Assembly (NCBI RefSeq): GCF_022376445.1
Contig: NW_025955046.1
Coordinates: forward strand, 62,001-126,000
Reading direction: 5' to 3'
Origin: Fomitopsis serialis
Taxonomy: Eukaryota; Basidiomycota; Agaricomycetes; Polyporales; Fomitopsidaceae
Length of the DNA stretch: 64,000 nt
Position numbers and translations under genes: made by a program. The notes beneath the pieces were generated by a model, which saw only the letters and a list, made by a program, of their open reading frames with translations, did no database searches and was not told the origin of the DNA. Shown here piece by piece: positions 2,895 to 64,000 of this stretch. Every line of letters starts with the position of its first letter. Positions within the stretch are counted from its first letter, which is position 1.

Positions 2895-5181
2895 AGTTTA
2901 CTCGAGGCAAGTACTGACTTGGAAGTTGCGCCACTCTGAGACGTGCGATGGTCGATGGTCTTGAGCCCGCCAGTAGTCTTCGGCTAACCCTGCTACACAG
3001 CCTGGGTCGCTAGCAACTTCATCGGGCGACAAGTGCGTAGCTGCACTTTACAGCAAGGGAGCCCTGGCGATATCAAGCTTCTCCTCATGGCCTTCGAGCG
3101 ATATCTCCCCCACCGTCAGCTGCGAGCCTGCCACCGCCTGCTGACCAGCGTTCGCCGACGGCCGCACATCTCGCGAAGTATGATTCGAGCTCTCCATACC
3201 CGGTCGCCCCACGGGGCCACGGTCCCGACTATGCCGTCCGGGCGAACGACGACCAAGCCACCCTCCGCCGCATCACCGCATACTTTGCATACGCATCCCC
3301 GGTCACGTCGTAGGCTGAGATGCCCAACGGCTGCTCGCCCAGCGTCTCAGCGGACTGCAGCGCACCCTCCCCACGCGGGATCGTCAAGAACGCGAACACG
3401 GGCGCGCGTGTGCGCGTGAACGCGTCTGGCGCATCCAGCGCCTGCTTGAGTGCGAGGTATTTGCCCGCGCACGCCGCGTTCAGCGCGCGCCCGCAGGTGT
3501 CGCCTCCAGCGCGCCGGCAAAGACGAGGATCCAGAACCGCCCAGAGTACGGCATCAGCTCGTAGAGCCGTCGCGGGAACGCGGCGCCTGGGAGGACGAGC
3601 GCGACGTCTGGCGCACGACGGCCCAGGAGCGCGGCCGCAGGCGTCGCACTCGCGCCGGCGCGGCGGTTCAGCACGTTCTCCGTGTACGAGATGCCGAGGC
3701 CGACGGTGAAGGACGCGTTGGTGGTGAAGACCTCGTCGAGGTACGAGTTGACGTCGGCGTCGGGTGGCGCGCGGAAGTGGCTGGGGATCTTGCCAGAGAT
3801 GAGCGACGCGATGTCGCGATCTAGCTGATTAGGTACTGTGCGGAGGCGCGGCGCTCGGCGTCGTACGTGTCGAGCACGCTCTCGTGCAGCCACCCTTGAG
3901 CACCCCGGCGAGCTTCCAGGCGAGGTTGTCGCGTCGTGGATGCCTGTGTTCATGCCCTAGGGACAGTGTTTCGTCGGGTCAGCTCTGGCACGCGTTACAG
4001 TGAGAGCACCCTGACCTGGGCCGCACCGGAGGAGTGCGTGTGTGCCGCGTCGCCCGCTAGAAGGACCGGCCCGTCCTTGAACGTCTCCGCCACGCGTTGC
4101 CCGATCGCGTACACCGTCCACCAGTCCAGCTCGACAAAGTCCAGAGTGAACGGCCGGACGGCTTTCTTGGCCTCCGCCATGATGACTTCAGCGGTCGGTG
4201 ACTCCCCATTCTGACCGAAGAGATGTTGTGGGCAGACGAAGCCGATCCGAGTGCGCCCGTTATCGATCGGGGTCCAGAGAACGTTGCCATGCTCGATGGA
4301 TTCGATCGCGACGCCGCCCCTCCTGCTATGCGGCATGTCCGTGCGCACAACAGCGTCCATGCGCACCCAACGATGATTTGAGTTTGTTCCAGGAAACGGG
4401 ATCCGGCAAATGGAACGGACGGTGGAGCGTCCCCCGTCAGCTCCTACCAGGTATCTGCTATTGAGTGGTTGTTATTTCGGAAGGGCGAGTTACACCCGGT
4501 GTGGACTAACCAGCGAACTTGGTAAGTTCTTTGATCCTCTTGTATTGTCGCAAGTACGGGGTACGGTGCGGTTGGATCAATAGAGTAGTCGATGAGTTTT
4601 GCGGGAGCTCGGAGGGCAGTCGGGTCGATGTATTGTATGGCCTCTCTCAAGGCAGCTTCAAGGTACTTTTGCCTGACACTGAAGCTGTTGGGGAGTTGAG
4701 AGGTGACCATGATGATGGTAAGAGGAGGTACTTCGCACCTGAATTCGAAGAAGGTGTTGCCTGCGATAGCGTCGCGCACGAAGGACCACCCTCGTGCTGG
4801 TACTTCTTTGCCATCTTTGAAAGTGATTGTCTCTCTGTGAACAGCGCCGGTCAAGCAAAAAATAACTGTTAAGTGAATAGAGCATATACTTGACCAAGAA
4901 TCCTATGTCTGCAATCCGAGCGTACATTCCGATCAGGTCAAGGAGCTCGACGGAGCGAGAGTAGAGCATGCATGCCCTTCCATACGAGGCCTGTGCCGCT
5001 TTATCGTACTGTTCTAAATCATGGTTTACTCAGCTTCTGCTCGGGGACATGCACAAGTGACCAACGAACCTACTGCAAGTGCAACAACCCCGGCCTTTAG
5101 CAGCATATACGTTGCTACGAGGGCTGTGGGGCCACCACCAACGACTAGGACATCCATTGCAGTAGGAGCAGGAGAGTACAT
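2895..5181 (-). repeat. Inverted segmental duplication, arm A
   Basis: This block repeats 30280 to about 32600 in inverted orientation. Similarity covers the whole monooxygenase gene and continues about 150 bp past its stop (shared words such as agagtggcgcaact near 2930 on the minus strand). It stops close to the start codons, since the upstream flanks of the two copies look unrelated. Confidence 0.8.
3048..5181 (-). pseudogene. FAD-dependent monooxygenase, decayed copy A
   Basis: A degenerate copy of the class A flavoprotein monooxygenase (phenol hydroxylase type) at 30280-32436, on the opposite strand. From the start at 5181 it keeps the GGGPTALVATYMLLK nucleotide-binding loop, the RSTVR-region exon and the FAD motif GDAAHTHSSGAAQ. 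The same introns are present. In the last exon it has lost single bases relative to copy B near 3928, 3894, 3826, 3486 and 3272, and further small losses near 3212 and 3160. The first three together restore the frame after a garbled stretch of about 40 residues; the later ones destroy the C-terminal thioredoxin-like domain. Every indel I found is a deletion. The stop at 3048 aligns with that of copy B. I call it a pseudogene, but consensus deletion errors cannot be excluded. Confidence 0.8.
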
Positions 5182-7607
5182 GCTCGTTCTGATACGGGTT
5201 CGTGTAGCAGGATAGAAAGGATCCAGTCGTGGCGAGCAAACTTCACAACACTAGTATGCGCGCCAGAAAGAGGCGGTGCATAACAAGACAATTGATGCAC
5301 ACAATTCTTTTTCGGCGCGTTTACTTGGAGATAGAAGTCAACCCAGAGTTTGCAAGTGTGATGAACCTCTGCTTACCACGGTCGTCCGCTTGAACTCCTA
5401 TCTGGGCGTCGCGAGACGTATATGCACTGGTGAGCTCCAAACCCTTGGAGGAGAATACAAGGTTCTCGCTTGTCGATCTTTTTCAAGACGTCATCAAGAG
5501 TTCTGCAGTGATGTGACGGAGGCCGCTCGGCGGGGATCTACACCTCTGTCCGAGAAGTTGCGTTTCAAGACTGCCTCGCGACAGCCCAACAATACACCGC
5601 CGATGATACTGCGAGTGCGTGGCACTGGCCTGGGAGTCTGGCAAGAACGTGCCATTGTGCAGCTTTGTGTGTGAAGTGGAGCGCTCGCAGCTCGACATCA
5701 AGACCCATCGTATTACAGCCATACGCCGGTAGGTAGCCCGGTGTGTCGCCGAGAGTGATCCTACAACGCCTTGTAGTATACCCGGGTCACCTACGTGGTA
5801 TGTACACAGATAGTATACGGCGCGGGCCGGCCCAGCGAACGGAAGCAGCTCCGCACCGACGAAATGCGAGTGTGCCGATGCGCATTCTGTCAGGACGATC
5901 CCAGCAAGTTGCAGACGACGCCGATATGTCGCGTATGGATTCAAGTTCAAGCTGGACTTTTGCGCCGATGAGGTATGCACGGCCGACGAGGACCATCCCC
6001 GAGCCGACGCACTCGGACTCGGCCATGCATACGAGCCGGCTCGACGGAGAGTTGGTTGGGGAGAACGAGAGATAGGAAGAGGATTCTCGACGCCACAAAC
6101 TTCATGACGCCTTGGTACCCGAGATAAGGACTCGGTGGGTGCGCGCGCGGTGTCGACCGAGATCGAGTCGAGCGAGGGACGACCAGGGCGGACCTGAGCC
6201 GCATTGTAGTGGCCATTACTGCCATAGCTGGCCCTCGCCTGGAGCTGGTCCCTGCCACACAGAGTCCCGTCAGTACGAGTGAGCGCACGCGCGGACGTAC
6301 CCGGCGGCCTCACGCTCCACACACCCCACACCCCTCGGCACGCTAGAACACCCGCCCCCTTCCACGCCGAATGTTCCTCGCAGCGCACCGATCGCGGAAC
6401 CCAGATCACGATCTGTCCATCTGCGCGCACCGGGCCCGGCGACGTTCCTGCCCGACGCCCTCTGATGCGCCACACCGGCGGGTGGTTCTCGCGCCGGGCT
6501 ATATATGGACGGAGAGAACCGAACTGCCGTGGTCGCGGTGGGTGGTGGTCGATCGGGCGGGGCCGCCCGGCGGACGCTGAGCAGGTACGTATATGCGCTT
6601 GCTGGTACCAAATGCGACAGGGTGTACTAGTGAACCCGCTAAGAGTAACAGTAGCTTGAATACGGATGGCCAAAATTGGTATTGGTTGGCAGGGAGGAGG
6701 TGGCTGAAACGACGTACAGTCAGCCACACCGTGACGGCGGCACCCGTACTAACGACTGTCGCAGTTGTCTGCCAGTGGCAGTGGACTGCGGCGGCGCCTG
6801 GCCGTTTGCAGTATTTGATCTGCATATGTAGGTGCGCAGCACAGGAACGGTGTCAAATGACAACGACCGAGGCAGCCAAGTGGGCCACTGGGACACCACG
6901 ACAAATGCGACGACAGGTTTGACAGCGTTCCGAGTCAGTCAGCTGCAGTCAGCGTAACGGAGGTGGGTGGTGTACTCGAGGCTTCCGCGACGAGCGCAGG
7001 GTGCGAGTCGATGATAGCCACGGGATCGTCAATCGATGTGAGCGCGTGGAGGTCGTCCGTCGGGTGAGGGAAAGCGGAAGGGGCGGGGAGCATCCAGGAA
7101 CATCTGCTTATGGTAATGAATCTGCCAGATCGGGGCGCATCGGGCTGGTGCGATCGAGGCGTCGGCCCGCCCGAGTCCGCGTCCGCATCCTTTTCCCACC
7201 CTCCCTTCCGCCTTGTGCCGCCGCGTTGGTCGCGCGCGACGCACAGCAAGGACGCAGCACAGCATGGGCCCCGCTCGTACGCCCGTCGGGGAAGCGTCGC
7301 GCGCGTTCCTGGGCCGAACATGGCCTGGGAGGATTACGGCTGCGAGATCTGTGGGGGCGTTTGTGGCAGGGAGATAACCGGGCGGGCCCTCATTGGACGA
7401 TAAGCAGCGCCCCCGCCCTACGTCGCAGTGCCAAGGCAGGCCGGACACCATTTATGAACGCAGCGCGGACGCGTTCCTCCTTCTCTTCTTCCTCCGAAGT
7501 CGTCGTTGACTCGCCCCTCGCCCGCCCACCGCGTCAGCCGCCGCGCGCGACCCCCCTCCCCCTTCCCCGACAGCGACCGCACGCACACATCTTCTGGCGT
7601 CGCAACT
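5182..7607. other. 2.4 kb without an assignable gene
   Basis: Long open frames occur on both strands (one on the minus strand from 6727 to 5483), but their translations are arginine- and proline-rich shadows with no family resemblance. A minus-strand ATG near 6105 opens a short hydrophobic, signal-like stretch (KFVASRILFLSLVLP) that ends after about 50 residues; a small secreted protein there is possible but unsupported. The right part is the ammonium transporter promoter. Confidence 0.35.
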
Positions 7608-55310: not shown

Positions 55311-55352
55311 TCTAGCATTGGATGAGCCCCGAATAACGATGCATGATTCTTA

Positions 55353-55943
55353 TTGCTGTTTGCAAAAGTCTTGTCGCGGCGCCAAAATCACAAAAAGTTC
55401 GCACGACGCGACCTTGCGACCTCTTGCTCAGAATCGCTGTTCCTCGCTCAATTCTCAACCTATCGGCTCGGCAACTACAGCGTTCGATTCGCCTCGGTGA
55501 GACGCAGCACCTGGTATGAAGAATATGGCGAAATTCGAAGGTCTCAAAATCTCGATTTTCGGGTGTGCGCGTGAAGGAGAACGGCGGCGGCGAGCGTAGG
55601 AGAGGCCAGGGAGCGTCGGGAATGGCTGGGACATGTTTGGTTGGGTAGTATGCAGTGCCCAAAAATGCGATGGTGAGTTTCGACCGCTCTGTTCTGTTGC
55701 CCGCGAGGTCTTTGACGCGAAACACGACCTCTTGCTCAGAGTCGCGGTTTCTCGCTCAATTCTCAACATATCTGCGCGGTAACTACAGCGTTCGAATCGT
55801 CTCGCCGAGACGCAGCACCTGGTATAAAGAACACGGCAAGATTCGTGAACCTCAAAATCTTGATTCTCGGGTGCGCGCGCGAAGGAGAATAGCGGCGGCG
55901 AGCGGAGGAGAGGTCAGAGAGCGTCGGGAATGGCTGGGACATG
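55353..55943 (+). repeat. Left terminal inverted repeat with internal 308-bp direct repeats
   Basis: The arm contains two related units in direct order; for example, ctcttgctcagaatcgc at 55421 recurs as ctcttgctcagagtcgc at 55729, a spacing of 308 bp. Unit 2 continues past the end of the arm to about 56050 on this side only. Neither unit encodes a convincing protein. Confidence 0.88.
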
Positions 55944-56790
55944 TTTGGTTGGGTAGTATGCAGTGCCCGAAAATGCGATGGCGAGTTTTGACCACTCTGT
56001 TCCGTTGTACTCACCTGCCCCCAGTTGCCTGCGAGGTCTTCGACGCGACGCGAAACATGCAGAGCACGCCCAGCTCTCATAAGATCTACCCAACGCTGAT
56101 GCCATTCGACGCCTCTCATAAGGCTGCAGTGCGCTTCATCAAGAACAGTAGAAAGGACAAGGTTTCGGTGGGTGGGCCCTTCACTCGGACCAGGCAAGCA
56201 TCGCGCGTCTCACGATTGGCATGACTGCCCCGTTGTGCTTGCAAAACCGCATCAAGGTATGATGTAAAATTACTATAAACCTGTTTGTATTGTCTTCTTT
56301 CCATCGCGCCGGCTCTCGAGCCTTTATTCCAGATCGGAAATGCGCTGTGAATTGCTATTCTGAAGGTGTGCGCCCGCGCGCTACACACGGTGGCACGGTG
56401 AGTTCACGCCCATTCTGATGCAGTCTCCGAGTTGCGACGGCAGGCGGTTGTCTCGGGACTTGTCAAGCCTTGCGCCTGATATAGTCTGCTAGTCTGATAT
56501 GCGCAGACCATTGGCATCAACCTTTGCAATCTCCCCCAATCCAATTCCGGACTTTTGATGTTGCTCGCTGGCCTGCATGGCGACATATTGATCTTGGCCG
56601 ACGTATGTAGTATCTACTAGCCCATAGATTATTCGAATAAATAATGAACATTCGTACATTGATCTTGTCCGACACCGATATCTACATATGTGGCGTGCAC
56701 CAGTGCGATCACAAGTCTTGAAGGGTGCCGCGATCTCACCGGTCGGCGGTCCCTCTTTTGTCTTGTGCACTCATCATCCACGTTCTCAAA

Positions 56791-58026
56791 ATGCCACAGA
56801 ATGTGCCGACACTCACCAAGGATCTCTGCTGGGTGCTCATTTACATGCATTACATCTCCCAGCTGTCTACCAAGGATATCTCAACATTGACTGGTATCAG
56901 GCTGCGCACACTACAGCGCCTTTTCCGTCTGCACTTGATGACCGGGGATGTCGCCACACACCGGAAACGAACTGGCCGGAAACGAAAACTTGATCAAAAT
57001 GCTGAAGAGGTACAGATGCCATCTATAGTGCTGTACATTGCTCATTACATTCACAGTTCATTCAAGGCTTGATCGAGCACTCGCCTGATTCGTACCTTAT
57101 GGAGCTGAGGGACAGACTTCAGGAGATCCATGGTGTACAGGTGGACATGAGCACAATTTGGAGGACTCTAAAGAAGCTTGGTTTCACATACAAGAAGGCA
57201 TGTACTAGTGTTTTGGCAATGGGGATGTGGATATCATAAACTCAACTCATGTTATCCTGGTTGTCCACAGATCTCAAAGAAAGCACTGGAACGAAGTGAT
57301 ATCAAGCGCACCGAGTACATCATGCGGATGGCTTCGCAATATAGTCCTCATCAGCTTGTCTTTGTTGATGAGAGTGCCTTTGACCGACGGACAACATATC
57401 GTGGTCGGGCATGGGCGCTCAAGGGACACAGGGCAGTGCGGAAGTGTTTCTATGTGCGGGGAAAGAAGTATGAATCTAGTCATAGTACATTATCTGGTCT
57501 CTGTACTGACTCCTGAGCCATGTATCAGATTTTCAATTTTGCCTGGCCTGTCACTCGATGGCATGCTATATTGCCGGATTGTCGAGGGGTCATTCAACAC
57601 TGCACGGTTCATCCAGTTCATTGAAGGTTTACTTGAACAAATGCAACCTTATCCTGGGCCAAACTCAGTCATTGTCATGGACAATGCACGCATACATAAG
57701 GATCCATCAATTGCTGAACTTGTGGAATCACGGTAATGTTCAATTGTTCAGATCTCACTCTCTCAACTGTTCATGAATTATGATGATTTAGTGGCATGCG
57801 GGTCGAGTTTCTCCCTGCTTATTCGCCAGACTTCAATCCAATTGAGCAAGCATTTGGTGTCATAAAGGCCTATATGTGTCGTACACATCATGATTTTGCT
57901 CGTTCCAATTCGACTGGTGCTGATTCGGAGGATCTGAATGAAGCATATATCATGCTGTATGAGGCTGTCTACTCTATCACAGCAGGCAATGCACGCTCCT
58001 TCTTTAATCATAGCGGGTATAGATAG
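56791..58026 (+). CDS. Tc1/mariner DD34E transposase, apparently intact
   Basis: Cut-and-paste transposase with a DDE catalytic triad. The N-terminus has a helix-turn-helix (LSTKDISTLTGIRLRTLQRL) and a basic KRTGRKRKL linker; a second helical DNA-binding region is ELRDRLQEIHGVQVDMSTIW with RTLKKLGFTYKK. The catalytic residues are the first D in LVFVDESAFD, the second in VIVMDNARIHKD, and E in YSPDFNPIEQAFGVIK. Counting between the second D and the E gives 34 residues, the Tc1 spacing. Four introns are needed (after NAEE, FTYKK, VRGKK and VESR); the second uses a GC donor. All joints keep frame over about 330 residues, normal for the family, so the protein could be active. The stop is about 200 bp from the end of the convergent accessory gene. 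Confidence 0.9.
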
Positions 58027-58230
58027 CCTGTACAGCAATTGTCCAATAGTCTAATGCATCTGAGTTTAATGTAAATGGAATGCTTCAGAGGGAGTCCGAG
58101 TCTTAGCACTTCAGATCTATACAAGAACAAATTATCTGTATATTAAAGATGCTCTACTCTACTCAATAAGCAGGTCAACTATATACATCTGCTATGATAG
58201 ACTAATTAGGGTGACAACGAGACATCAAGA

Positions 58231-60404
58231 TCAGAAGCGCAACCTCTTCGTAGCTCTCCTTGCACGGCGCTGGAGTTCTGCAACATCCTCACGGGCCCAC
58301 TTCTTCAACTGCAATGCAATGCCCAGAGGCATTTCGAAATACTGCTGGAGCTGCTCTTCAGTAAGCAAATGAAAGTCATCCAGACGTGCAATTCGCTGTT
58401 CCCACAAAGCCTGTGCCCATCCTACGAATTGGAGCTGATCCCGTCCTCGATACGGATCATTGTCGAGGCCGAGAAGCCACTCGTACATCGTAGGATAGTC
58501 GACCTGAACTGGCTCATCATCAGATATGTCGAGGCTTGCACGGCGACGTCGTGAACGAGAGGTTGATTGGGATGGCGAAGAATCTACAGATCCCGCGCGG
58601 TGCCGATGAGGTCGATCATGATGACGGGGAGTCTGTGGCGTATACATTGGGGCAGGTGGGAATCCATACGGCATAGGCGGGTAGCCATAGATCGGGGGTG
58701 GCAGTGGCAAAGGCGCCGCATAACCTGGCAGCGATCCCGGATAGATGCCTGCATGCGGAGCAACTGACATTGCCGACGGATGCCCTTGCATTCCCAGATA
58801 GCCCGGGGCACCAGGATAGGGGAATGTCACTGCACCACCGACCGCAGACTGCGCAACAGGGTCTGCGTCTCGGGGAGCCCCGGCAGCCACATCACTACTG
58901 CTTGCACTGGAGCCAGCATCCCTCGGCTTCGGCGGAGGCGCAATCTTCAGTTGGGGCGGGATCACATCAACTGTCGCATCGCCGCCGCTCTACAGAGTGA
59001 ATAATCAACATTTATTTGTAGATGTGAGTGTCGAGTGATTAAATCACGTACCACGAGTCTGATCCACGTCGTGAGTTCCCACATACTGAATTCCCGATGC
59101 TTCCCAACGATCTTTAATGCACATGCCTTGTCGCATTTCTGGCAGTACCAGATCCGCTGCAGCTTCGCAAGAACACGAGCATACGCGGTAGACGTAGGCT
59201 CGCCAACATTATCTTCATTCTCGCTGGTATGTGTGTCCTGGCCTTGGGCAGCAGACGTCGATCCGCGCGCCTTCTGCTTCGCCTTCGTGTTCTTCGACAG
59301 AACCATCAGCCAATATCACCAAATCAAGATCAAGCATACCTTGCCAGTGACGGGCGCAGCACTAGACACGTCAGATTCCATGAGAGGGACTATACGGACA
59401 TGGTATGGCTTGACGCCGTTCTTGCCGCGCGACTGCGAATCAACGAACATGCGCACTTGCTCCGTCAAGCCTTGCCACTCTTCCGCATCATCGAGCGAGT
59501 TTGCTGCAGGGTTCTTTTGATTGCTCTTGAACTCCCACGACGGGATATATGCAAGGCGACTCGGCGGGATCATGACGCCGAGGATGCTTTGTCGAACTGT
59601 CTCCCACTTCGCAGTCGACTCCACGCGGATATCTTTGACGGTGTTCGCGCCAATCGGGACCTTCAAAGGGATGACCAATGTTGCTAGAACTGCATGTTAG
59701 CATTGGTGCGTGAGCCTAGCAAATCTGTACATACCAGGTGTTGACTCCGACTCCAAGTCTGCAGCCGCAGAGGTACTGGCTTTACTACGGCTCGGGGTGG
59801 CATTGCGGGACCGGCCCTTCAACTTGGACGGAGGAACCTTGATTTTGAAAGACGGCATGACCTGGTCATAGACCTTGTCCCAAAAAGCCTCGTTCCTCTC
59901 GTTCTCCTCGTCCTGTTGTTGGCTGGGAACGATCTTCTTGCGCCCGGGCCATTTGCCAGCTGCATCCTCCAACTCCCCATCCACCTCTGCCGACTCGTCC
60001 TCCTCGTCCTCGTCCTCGTCATCCTCGTCCTCCTCGTCATCCTCGTCACCTTCATCGTCCGAGCCTGACCCAGGTGCGTCGGGCGTATCCGATGAGGCGT
60101 CAACATCAATGATATCGGAACTGACTTGAGCCGTCGCCTTTGGATGCGTGGAGGAGTCCCGACGCAGGCCCACTAGGATCGATGCCGCTTCCAGCTCGGT
60201 TTCCTCGCGAGTCTCAGACTCCTGGACATTGCCATTCCGCAAAGCACCTTTGTAGGCAGGCCTTGGACGAGGTCTCGGAGGCGGAGGCGGCGGCGGAGGC
60301 GGCGGCGAGTCTGGGGTGGTCTGACGTCGAGAGGACTTCGAAGTCTTCCGAGTTGTGCGTGGTTTCCCTGACTTCCGCTTCGATTTGTTCCGTTTGTCTG
60401 CCAT
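58231..60404 (-). CDS. Transposon-borne accessory protein: acidic, cysteine-knuckle, SAM-like end
   Basis: No named family. From MADKRNKSKRKSGKPRTTRK (nuclear-type basic start) it has a run of about ten prolines, a long Asp/Glu tract and IIDVDASSD. An intron (59734-59690) joins in frame to VLATLVIPLKVPIGANTV and an ordered domain with AYIPSWEFKSNQK. The third exon has the cysteine pattern CQKCDKAC followed by a histidine in VGKHREFSMWELTTW. The last exon is Pro/Tyr/Gly-rich and ends with YEWLLGLDNDPYRG, FHLLTEEQLQQYFEMPLGIA and LQLKKWAREDVAEL, which has the feel of a SAM-like helical domain. Four exons, no lesions, about 670 residues. Its place between the inverted repeats, tail to tail with the transposase, suggests it belongs to the element; host-gene capture is the alternative. 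Confidence 0.75.
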
Positions 60405-60770
60405 AGAGTCTAGAGATGAGAAGAAGGAGTGTGTAGAGTGTATGAGTGAATGTGCTAGGGTAGGGTATACGGGTATGTGCAATGTCAAGTTCAACTTGCA
60501 AACACCGACTCGGCTGTGTAGCGATCTTCACGCTGGATGTGATCCCGGCCATACACGTAATGGCAGGGCTTTCTCTCTCGACACTGCAAGCATACATGCT
60601 GACCATCACCATGTCACACATTAGCTCTTTCACTTCATAGAAATATATTGTTGTTCGAGTCGTCAGGGCATAGGTACCGGGTCGGTGTCACATAGCAGCG
60701 AGGAGAGCCTGAAAAAAGAAAGTTCTCTGCATACCTGCGACTATGTCGTGCTGCGGTGAACTCCCCTGAG

Positions 60771-61361
60771 CATGTCCCAGCCATTCCCGACGCTCTCTGA
60801 CCTCTCCTCCGCTCGCCGCCGCTATTCTCCTTCGCGCGCGCACCCGAGAATCAAGATTTTGAGGTTCGCGAATCTTGCCGTGTTCTTTATACCAGGTGCT
60901 GCGTCTCGGCGAGACGATTCGAACGCTGTAGTTACCGCGCAGATATGTTGAGAATTGAGCGAGAAACCGCGACTCTGAGCAAGAGGTCGTGTTTCGCGTC
61001 AAAGACCTCGCGGGCAACAGAACAGAGCGGTCGAAACTCACCATCGCATTTTTGGGCACTGCATACTACCCAACCAAACATGTCCCAGCCATTCCCGACG
61101 CTCCCTGGCCTCTCCTACGCTCGCCGCCGCCGTTCTCCTTCACGCGCACACCCGAAAATCGAGATTTTGAGACCTTCGAATTTCGCCATATTCTTCATAC
61201 CAGGTGCTGCGTCTCACCGAGGCGAATCGAACGCTGTAGTTGCCGAGCCGATAGGTTGAGAATTGAGCGAGGAACAGCGATTCTGAGCAAGAGGTCGCAA
61301 GGTCGCGTCGTGCGAACTTTTTGTGATTTTGGCGCCGCGACAAGACTTTTGCAAACAGCAA
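60771..61361 (-). repeat. Right terminal inverted repeat
   Basis: Reverse complement of 55353-55943, with the same length and one mismatch by eye. It contains the same pair of 308-bp direct repeats. Confidence 0.88.
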
Positions 61362-64000
61362 TAATACTGTATTTTCTGGGATGGCGAAATAGCTGGTACG
61401 AATGCACGGGCGCTTCTACCCGAGTTCTGGCAGTCACCGAGTTAGCGCCGGTTCTGTTCTGCGAACAACTTGAATTTTGGGCTCCTTCCTCGCTGCACGA
61501 TCACGTCGCGTCGTCAGTCTGTACTGAACTACACTTTGGCTGCTCGCGCGCTCTTGAGTGAATGGAACGATTCCATTTTCCCGTGTACCAGACGAAAGCA
61601 TTGGCGTACGGAGTCTGACTTCCTACCACCACGTCGACTTCTTCGTACCCTGTTCTGTTTCCCTGGAGTCAAGGAGCGCTCAGAGCGATGATAAATATGG
61701 AGAAGGATCGCAAGATGCGCGGTCTGAGGTTGTCAGTGTTGGATGATCTGTGTTGAAAAGGTACGTGCGGTATTTCTCAAGCGTTCGCAATCTCGACTTA
61801 CGACAGTATCCTGCTCTTCACTGAAAGCGCACATGATGCGGACTCGGAGTACTCTGAGACATGCCGATCGCCAGAGCAATGTCGTTATCGGTGAGCAACG
61901 AATACAGCTCCTTGGATGTACCTGCTCACGGTGGCTAAAGCCGCATCGCAAATGGATTCAGAGCGTGCTGGTACCGTTCTCCGAGTCCATAAGGCCCGGT
62001 TCCCTGAGCCTTCCACGTTCAGCAGCACACCATTTGTGCCATTCGCTGTCTTGTGCGCGGCCTTGCGCTCCGGACATATGTACTGCAGGCCACATCAGAA
62101 ACCCCTTTCGAGTTGGCCTCTACGCGATACGAACAACGCTAGCTTCAAGAAGCGATCCTCCTGTGTCGATTACGGCGATAGGCACGAGCGCGCCCGCACT
62201 ACATAAACCCGTCTAAGGACGTCCAGGGCGACCACCAAACGGCCCACATCAAGTGAGCGACTGATACGTTGGTGCTGGTCTGTCGCGGACTCGCGGTGCG
62301 GATGCACGGTTGCTTTGGACCTTTCGGGAGGCCGAGCGATTAGTTGCCCGCCCGTGGAAGACCTATTCCTTGGCGTGCGTACCTGTCTGTAGTGACCCTA
62401 CGATTGAGGCCTCCCAAGGAGAAGCCGCAACACCGCTCGCGACAGCCATCCGTTCGCCATGATAACCACGCAGCCCTTTCCTTTGCTATACTTCAACTTG
62501 TATTGGTCACGGGCGCCATGGTGGATGTCGCAACAATAGATGCGCGATGACGATGCACACATGCACAGCGAGCCGGCGACTTCGCATATGCTGCTGCTCA
62601 TATCCATCCCAGCCACCGGCCCAACCCTTTCTCCCCTCGTTTGAGCATGTGCGTCACGCCGCACTAGATCGCGGCACATGGGCGTACGATTCTGCGCGTC
62701 GGGCGTATGCCATGTCATCGCGTCTCCACAACACCAACGTCCTCTCATACCTTGCAACACTCGCCTTGCTGTGTCGCATTACACCACAGGCACAGCATTG
62801 GTCTCCGCAATGAACCACGGCGATGTCTCCGCCCCAGGTTGCGCTATGCTGGTCATCCTCAACAGTGTTCCGGCCCCTCACCGGCGTTGATCGCTATCCT
62901 CGCCCTTCACTCGCACAGGTGTACGTGTCCTCCTCCGGTCGAGATTCTCGCTGTCGTGGCACGACGAAGACCGAGGCATGCCCCCGATGCACACCAGCGG
63001 CGACCCTATCATCGGGAACCAAGCGACCACGGGCTAGGGTTATCACTCGCCAGCGACGAGACCGAGATCGAGGACGAGTGGTGCCTTTTCAATTATCAGT
63101 AGGTAGAACCACCTCTCGCTGCTCGCTGCCGCCCTGCGACAACTTACCTCTGGACCTGTCGGCTTGCTATACAAGACGCGGTGTCATTGGCTGGTCGTGT
63201 TGGTATGATCATCGCGCGTAGGCCCAGGCGGCGAAGAGAGCAGCCCGAACTGGGTCAGTGCCTGCTTTTCTTGCGACGTTCGACCGATGTGGCTCACAGT
63301 CTGCCTGTGGATAGCGAGGAGCGCTCATTCGACACGCGTCCATGAACTACTGCCGCCACATGTCGATATCGCCTCGCTCGGTGAATATGTACTCCTTGGA
63401 GTCGTTAGCATTTATCAATCATCAGATGCTCATATAACCCTCCATGACAGTCAAGCACCCGTACGCGGACACACTTCTAAGTTCGCGGCTTGCTCGAGTT
63501 GAGGCATGTCCGAAATAGAGCTGCAGATGTAGACAGATCGCTCGCCCGGGTACATCGACCACGAGCGGCCTGGTCTGTCCGCAGCAGTTCAACGCAAGAA
63601 CAGTTGTAGGAAACGGACCGAGGAAAACGTCACGGTGACTGGATGCTCGAATGACATCCGGTGTTCTGGCAGGCAGCTTTGCCATTCCCCTCGATCCCTG
63701 CACTATAGCATGTCGCGAATTCTCGATATTCATTGGATGACTTTGTGAGCCATCCCGTTCCTCGTCCGCGTCATGTAATCACACGTCTCAGGCTCGCCAT
63801 GTGGTAGCAGTCCTCAGAGTAGCTGTCGATTTCTGTCTGGACGACGCGATGTATGTAGTCGCAGGATTGGGGTTCCGGGCAGAGGCGAATAAGCCGGGTT
63901 AATTTCAATGGATGGCGAGATGTTACCTGCCGATACTTCAGGTACGGCTCGCCGTTCCTTGTGTTCTTGGTCCACAATCGTCTGTGAACCTGCGTGTATA
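61362..64000. other. 2.6 kb without an assignable gene
   Basis: Right flank of the transposon. Several frames of 60-157 codons exist on both strands (for example 61743-62216 plus and 62760-62398 minus), but none resembles a known family or shows a good exon structure. I see no repeat shared with the rest of the window. The missing half of the WOPR gene was not found here. Confidence 0.4.

Follow-up and report, generated by a model that had tools for sequence, protein, structure and literature searches.

A two-gene Tc1/mariner-type transposon in Fomitopsis serialis and a sister family with varied dinucleotide target duplications

Organization of the element and its insertion site

The stretch of DNA analysed here (the window) comprises 64,000 nucleotides of the Fomitopsis serialis genome, corresponding to positions 62001–126000 of contig C792 in an assembly of 66.2 Mb and 806 contigs, and contains one 6,009-bp element at window positions 55353–61361. 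The element carries two genes in tail-to-tail orientation between long terminal inverted repeats (TIRs) bordered by the dinucleotide TA. It belongs to a two-gene Tc1/mariner-type lineage inside which the target rule has changed, in that a relative on contig C223 no longer needs TA; a role for the second protein in transposition is proposed.

The first gene (56791–58026, plus strand) encodes a transposase of 331 amino acids in five exons (56791–57009, 57057–57197, 57271–57467, 57529–57732 and 57792–58026), and its intron 2 (57198–57270) must be of the GC-AG type. Residues 148–284 match the Pfam profile DDE_3 (expectation value E 2.9e-31), and a count by eye on the translation puts 34 residues between the second and third members of the catalytic triad, D and E. 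Together with the TIRs and the TA duplication, this agrees with the initial annotation of the DNA, which had proposed a Tc1/mariner-type element with an intact DD34E transposase. Matches to profiles of an N-terminal helix-turn-helix DNA-binding part (HTH_32, E 7e-7; HTH_33, 2e-5; HTH_Tnp_Tc3_2, 1e-4) are all below the curated cut-offs. The second gene (gene B; 58231–60404, minus strand) was mentioned only in passing in that annotation, although it is the more unusual part of the element. It reads through in four exons (60404–59735, 59689–59340, 59291–59052 and 58989–58231) and encodes 672 amino acids with a Cys/His-containing segment and, in a low-confidence model, a helical C-terminal segment. 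An Asp/Glu-rich coding repeat within it (59963–60060) has many short matches in the genome, which probably reflect chance or low complexity.

The TIRs form a left arm (55353–55943, plus strand, starting TTGCTGTTTGC) and a right arm (60771–61361, minus strand), each of 591 bp. A repeat search returned the inverted pair 55350–55943 and 60771–61364, 594 nucleotides that include TTA and TAA outside the 591-bp arms, and its 593 matches are far beyond chance. Base-by-base comparison of the arms finds a single mismatch, at 55846, as had been counted by eye before; the TA dinucleotides at 55351–55352 and 61362–61363 do abut both ends, and the inverted identity ends one base past TA on both sides. Direct repeats with a spacing of 308 bp lie within the arms. 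In the left half, copy 1 (55417–55699) and copy 2 (55725–56007), both on the plus strand, are 88% identical over 283 bp, and the last 64 bp of copy 2 lie beyond the inverted arm; inside the right arm an inner partial unit (60771–60989) and an outer unit (61079–61297), both on the minus strand, are 86% identical over 219 bp. Each arm had been described as two 308-bp units, which comes close without being exact, the actual make-up being a 64-bp unrepeated tip (55353–55416 in the left arm), one 308-bp unit, and a 219-bp partial unit. A nested element inside the arms was considered and rejected, there being no inner inverted pair, that is no exact inverted match of at least 11 bp, between 55944–56790 and 58027–60770.

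A site without the element is present on contig C416 (L047) of the same assembly. The 2 kb to the left of the element match C416:11697–13699 at 96% and the 2 kb to the right match C416:13698–15629 at 91%, and the two matches overlap by exactly two bases, the single TA at C416:13698–13699. The insertion is therefore polymorphic, and at least two loci are present twice in the assembly, one version carrying an insertion and the other lacking it, a pattern that the presence of two haplotypes would produce. The bases beside TA differ between the alleles, being T-TA-A in the filled allele (55350–55352 and 61362–61364) and A-TA-C in the empty one; chance may explain this, because the haplotypes differ by several percent here. 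Among the copies of the family, T precedes TA at three left ends (C792, C412 and C56) and A follows TA at two right ends (C792 and C56).

Two further copies were found. Contig C412 has a solo left arm of 521 bp, 97% identical to that of the window element and with TA at its left end, and contig C56 has a 1.77-kb deleted copy (L021 4143–5907) that retains the two arms plus a remnant of the 5′ part of the second gene, with TA at both ends. Both the C412 arm and the left end of the C56 copy begin at the same base as the window element. The initial annotation had named copies ending elsewhere, and the lack of an empty site with the same TA-to-TA limits, as observations that would show the arms not to be the termini of the element; the shared first base in C412 and C56 and the one TA in C416 where the element has two both support 55353–61361 as its exact limits. 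Empty sites for C412 and C56 were searched for in the assembly and none was found. The right arm of the C56 copy seemingly has only one repeat unit, which looks like the product of recombination between direct repeats, and its right end is without four bases (GCAA) before TA.

The near identity of the arms had been taken to imply recent movement. In cut-and-paste transposition, the two arms travel together without alteration, so that their identity is not a clock as it is in long terminal repeats. Between the two window arms 372 of 372 outer and 218 of 219 inner positions are identical, while the outer and inner units of one arm share 87.6%; the C412 arm shares 97.6% with either window arm (a difference of 2.4%), and the two C56 arms are 86.9% identical to each other. 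This combination of near-identical window arms, a C412 arm equally distant from both, and C56 arms 13% apart points to homogenisation of the arms within the window element, perhaps by conversion. Because the arms move unchanged and appear to be homogenised, their identity is no measure of insertion age, and dating by it was rejected on the strength of these comparisons within and between the three copies; that the insertion is recent follows instead from the existence of the empty allele.

Gene pairs associated with two transposase clades

With the window transposase as query, related loci were found on C223 and C612 as well as C792, among the best candidates scored, and at all three the transposase gene is accompanied by a second gene in the same position and orientation. 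The second genes of C223 and C612 encode 458 and 630 amino acids, and the tail-to-tail arrangement leaves gaps of 204 bp (C792), 95 bp (C223) and 242 bp (C612). The C223 transposase model (333 codons with the stop) reads through, as do both genes of the C612 pair (L048 2063–5567); in the C612 transposase model one acceptor, as initially placed, is non-canonical, and by eye there is an AG three bases further in frame. The DDE_3 profile gave 15 matches on 12 contigs of the genome, three of which are C792, C223 and C612, and the count of three pairs at three loci refers to the loci from the transposase query only. Left out of it are seven contigs (C579, C239, C802, C22, C667, C469 and C534) with what looks like another DDE_3 kind and two (C129 and C590) with matches that are not convincing and were not counted as group members. 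The other kind (L055, L056, L057, L060, L062, L063 and L064) has open frames of 211–795 amino acids and, ahead of the last motif, a long stretch rich in Cys (..CCCRRML..LPKFHPELNPIEQCW.. and its variants).

The four transposase introns have the same positions and phases (0, 0, 2, 2) in C792, C223 and C612, which supports the five-exon model. The transposases fall into two clades. The best match listed for the window protein is P0002 of Tricholomella constricta (55% identity), the high-ranking named relatives being from Agaricomycetes, and in a tree of 38 of the 120 listed homologues the window transposase groups with P0002–P0004 (support 96/97), whereas those of C223 and C612 stand together in another clade of eight rows (100/100). 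Other homologues are P0010 (Mycena kentingensis), P0023 and P0039 (Panaeolus cyanescens) and P0024 (Dentipellis fragilis), of which P0039 belongs to the C223 clade.

The second genes share three introns, which agree in place and phase (1, 0, 0) at the three loci. The first of the three, of phase 1, falls within a Val codon ahead of the middle segment, the next is of phase 0, and the last, also of phase 0, lies inside the Cys/His segment, where the junctions, marked by a slash, are WIRLV/SGGDA, WAHEI/AAGKA and LAKKI/ALNHA; the C223 gene has one extra intron upstream, near the gene start. Since order, orientation and introns agree, we take the three second genes as one gene family. The C223 and C612 proteins are significantly similar in all three segments (z 5.8, 11.5 and 3.8; 1, 0 and 5 in 1000 shuffles), and the window protein matches that of C223 in the Cys/His segment (z 4.8; 0 in 1000 shuffles); in twelve cross-segment controls z did not exceed about 1.5. 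Gene B is also 88% identical over residues 185–672 to P0001, which spans all three introns already spliced at the predicted junctions and comes from a 3,714-nucleotide Joint Genome Institute contig. The source of P0001 is probably a transcript, in which case a near relative of gene B is transcribed.

Several results weigh against an old second-gene family that belongs to the transposon. Outside the Cys/His segment the window and C223 second proteins have no significant similarity, none of the three segments is significant between the window and C612 proteins (z 0.35, 1.3 and 1.0), and a profile-profile comparison of the second proteins is not significant (E 0.24). Homology of the window gene is thus mainly a matter of gene order, introns and one segment, sequence by itself being no proof. 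In two protein searches with gene B, P0001 was the sole relative among the best 7,988 and 7,999 candidates. When the genome was searched with two of the second proteins, those of the window and of C223, no further copy of the gene reached E<=0.001, the only matches being their own genes, the fragment in the deleted C56 copy, and one of E 0.17 at C88; because each query also missed the other's gene, diverged free-standing copies may exist. Gene B has no Pfam match above cut-off and no significant match in the PDB, two predicted structures are poor (predicted local distance difference test scores of 41 and 57), and a fold search with the second model gave no match at E<=0.001. It follows from the poor models and the lack of a fold match that any domain label is unproven, and the labels "ubiquitin-like", "zinc" and "SAM-like" are not claimed, the Cys/His segment alone being statistically supported (window versus C223); for the SAM label, two yeast SAM structures appeared in the fold search at E 2.8 and 5.0, which is not significant. 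Finally, no terminal inverted repeats were found for the C612 pair, the best inverted match scoring 37 compared to up to 38 in shuffles. A scan of viral contigs with P0001 found no relative.

Target sites of the C223 family

The C223 element (L049 3548–7094) contains the transposase and the second gene between arms of 142 and 152 bp that are 89% alike and begin CAGCTAGTTGCAG; its ends are CAG...CTG. Its joined flanks match contig C407 continuously, as a site without the element, and C407 is presumably the other haplotype of the locus. In the alignment to C407:2250–2500 the last two bases of the left flank are also the first two of the right flank, CA. The presence of this unoccupied site supports mobility of the gene pair as one unit.

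With the C223 arm as query, 38 matches were found in the genome, many of them paired about 0.5 kb apart, and these represent a family of short derivatives (e.g. L103). One short copy read in its entirety matches the C223 element in the arms and then, past them, for 54 bp at one end (E 4e-5) and, weakly, for 19 bp at the other (E 0.02); given this extension, it looks like an internal-deletion derivative. The comparison of target sites covers 15 insertions, the C223 element and, from the arm matches, the 14 complete derivatives whose two ends were both read; eight ends that are single or degenerate (L095–L102) were left out.

An exact direct repeat of 2 bp flanks each of the 15 insertions, and a repeat of 3 bp flanks none (14 in one count, L093 by eye). 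The duplicated pair is TA in three, CA in three, TG, GA and TC in two each, and AA, GC and AC in one each, so that 12 of the 15 duplications, including the CA of the C223 element itself, are not TA. As to the flanking bases, T stands before the pair in 14 of 15 and A after it in 13 of 15 (both in 12); measured against the base composition of the window, the binomial probabilities are about 1e-8 and 2e-7, respectively. What the C223 family duplicates is therefore a variable pair of bases within T-NN-A, whereas the three copies of the window family show T-TA-A only.

Empty sites support these duplications. When the 14 derivative sites were joined to 38-base empty sites and searched for in the assembly, 10 had a full-length match elsewhere (92–100%, gap-free by equal length), eight of them with a non-TA pair, and none was found for the other four (L077, L083, L089 and L093). 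The query for L067 matched two places and that for L075 four, and since several places match, these two sites may lie in repeats; the L075/L076 copy (C113:310511–311107), whose empty site matches the four other places at 92–95%, may sit inside another repeat. Among the ends left out of the count, L095, L097, L098, L099 and L102 fit T-NN-A on the visible side (the ends of L098 and L099 being altered), L100 has G where T is expected, and L096 and L101 are without an intact end.

Proposed roles, alternatives and known elements

The usual view of Tc1/mariner elements is of transposons that have a single gene and target TA, although exceptions exist. In this one genome there are three gene pairs, two transposase clades, a TA family, and a T-NN-A sister family with a varied dinucleotide, and two questions become directly testable, namely what fixes the choice of TA and what the simplest eukaryotic transposon gains from a second gene; for the change in target choice the T-NN-A family is a natural starting point. 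In our reading, to which we give a probability of roughly 0.7, the window element is a cut-and-paste transposon of the IS630-Tc1-mariner group that is complete and probably autonomous, and its second gene would encode an accessory nuclear protein. The second gene appears to have long been integral to the transposon rather than cargo, and would have been the companion of the transposase since before the two transposase clades of this genome split.

In the mechanism that we envisage, the transposase would bind the arms, pair them as a dimer, cut at the TTG/CAA ends and insert into TA, and the arms would be kept alike by conversion between each other. The second protein would act together with the transposase, perhaps through binding and pairing of the ends or by steering the choice of target. 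Such an accessory function in transposition is a tentative assignment, somewhat short of even odds, that we place ahead of regulation or anti-silencing and then of cargo. Two-protein requirements figure in models of other superfamilies, with the Myb-like protein of Harbinger and TnpA of En/Spm. Target choice in the C223 family would depend on contacts with base pairs outside the duplicated two. A GRPR-like motif has been described as a supposed TA binder (PMC8533490), and by eye the C223 and C612 transposases have GRPR and that of the window GRKR; because C223 keeps GRPR and the window protein has GRKR, the motif does not by itself explain the choice of TA here. More broadly, we give an even chance to the proposal that mushroom genomes harbour an old DD34E Tc1/mariner-type lineage of two-gene machines, in which the second protein is needed for transposition and may allow the target to change, one branch having shifted target recognition outward from the central TA to its two neighbouring bases, with insertion at T-NN-A and duplication of whichever two bases lie between.

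The second protein could instead counter host silencing or regulate the element without any part in cutting and joining, and its acidic, lysine-rich and proline-rich low-complexity stretches, together with the Cys/His segment, would fit a chromatin or regulatory protein. No result favours this over a direct role, and we consider it unlikely. Slightly less likely again is that the second gene is a passenger, acquired by chance from the host or a foreign source and without a role in transposition. The absence of a known domain, the weak similarity of the window protein to the others outside one segment, and a 0.39-kb non-coding stretch matching contig C490, which shows that the element does contain sequence found elsewhere, all speak for a passenger; yet each of the three transposases found has beside it a second gene that agrees in orientation, in tail-to-tail spacing and in three introns, even though those of C223 and C612 lie in a different well-supported clade from that of the window, and no free-standing copy appeared in the genome at E<=0.001, within the limited reach of that search.

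Two other alternatives concern the ends. The duplications of the C223 family could be the work of another superfamily, if a short inverted-repeat element with 2-bp duplications had swallowed the DDE_3 gene pair. To our knowledge, variable 2-bp duplications are not what Tc1/mariner transposases are known for, and 14 of the 15 sites come from short copies linked to the C223 transposase only by shared sequence. This is improbable, however, as no gene besides the pair was found between the C223 arms, which lie only about 155 and 191 bp from the genes; no exact inverted match of at least 10 bp frames the pair between 3701–3844 and 6752–6942, where there is one of 8 bp; the match of the short copy to the C223 element continues beyond the arms; and T-NN-A sites have T and A in common with the T-TA-A of the window family. 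As for the window element, arms so long and so nearly identical are unusual for Tc1/mariner and might suggest an assembly artefact or fold-back duplication rather than termini. That can hardly be credited given that the inverted identity stops one base past TA on both sides, where the empty allele has exactly one TA, and that the C412 solo arm and the C56 left arm share the first base of the element.

Among known systems, the DD34E Tc1/mariner elements of Agaricomycetes resemble the window family in their DDE_3 domain, DD34E triad, TIRs and TA duplication, and differ from the elements described here in that the window element is 6 kb and has a convergent second gene, of a kind also present beside related transposases, and in that the sister C223 family duplicates varied bases at T-NN-A. 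The initial annotation had also likened the arms to those of Sleeping Beauty and other Tc1-like elements of the inverted repeat/direct repeat (IR/DR) type, which similarly have long inverted arms containing direct repeats. In Sleeping Beauty the outer repeat sits at the very tip of the arm. The TIRs there are about 220 bp, with one outer and one inner repeat (PMC7827188), and the repeats are short binding sites, whereas the 308-bp repeat of the window element starts 64 bp inside the end; there is no direct-repeat copy at the very end, the likeness fails on this point, and membership of the IR/DR type was rejected. A match to SB100X in the PDB (E 0.92) is non-significant.

Long arms occur in other elements as well. 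The Tec elements of ciliates have TIRs of about 700 bp, three open reading frames (ORFs) and a DD34E transposase, and the Tec and TBE elements have in common with the window element the DD34E triad, several ORFs, one of them in the complement (Tec), the long TIRs (Tec) and a zinc-finger protein (TBE); they differ in having three ORFs and being restricted to ciliates, and the likeness is one of description (PMC7325037). Tec carries a site-specific recombinase (PMC7325037), and no such domain was found in gene B by the Pfam and PDB searches. Sailor of Lobosporangium, with TIRs of 1,362 bp, a length of 6,979 bp and a mostly TATA duplication, is likewise fungal, long-armed, large and altered in its target duplication; it has DD82E in place of the DD34E found here, and a second conserved gene is unmentioned in the accessible part of the source (PMC8533490). 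A 3,972-bp mariner-type family, MarorTcMar-18, is reported from Marasmius oreades, the accessible text not stating a second gene (PMC9674265). The TAA and TAAA duplications of Fot/pogo elements illustrate that the target duplication can change in the wider group, but all begin with TA, unlike the TG, AA, GC, GA, TC, CA and AC of the C223 family (PMC7386202). The wider group thus already includes examples of long TIRs, of several ORFs and of altered duplications, and of the features that had been singled out as unusual, the long arms and a length of 6–7 kb are by themselves not new (Sailor, Tec), the second gene being the more unusual. The literature within reach, which excluded most subscription papers and Repbase and so is no proof of absence, held neither a conserved second gene in a fungal Tc1/mariner element nor a varied 2-bp duplication at T-NN-A.

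The non-coding stretch that matches C490 lies between the left arm and the transposase gene (56171–56563), and is collinear with L022 3849–4618 in three pieces of 92%, 80% and 70% identity. On C490 the match is downstream of an ORF that we take to resemble the end of a Plavaka-type transposase.

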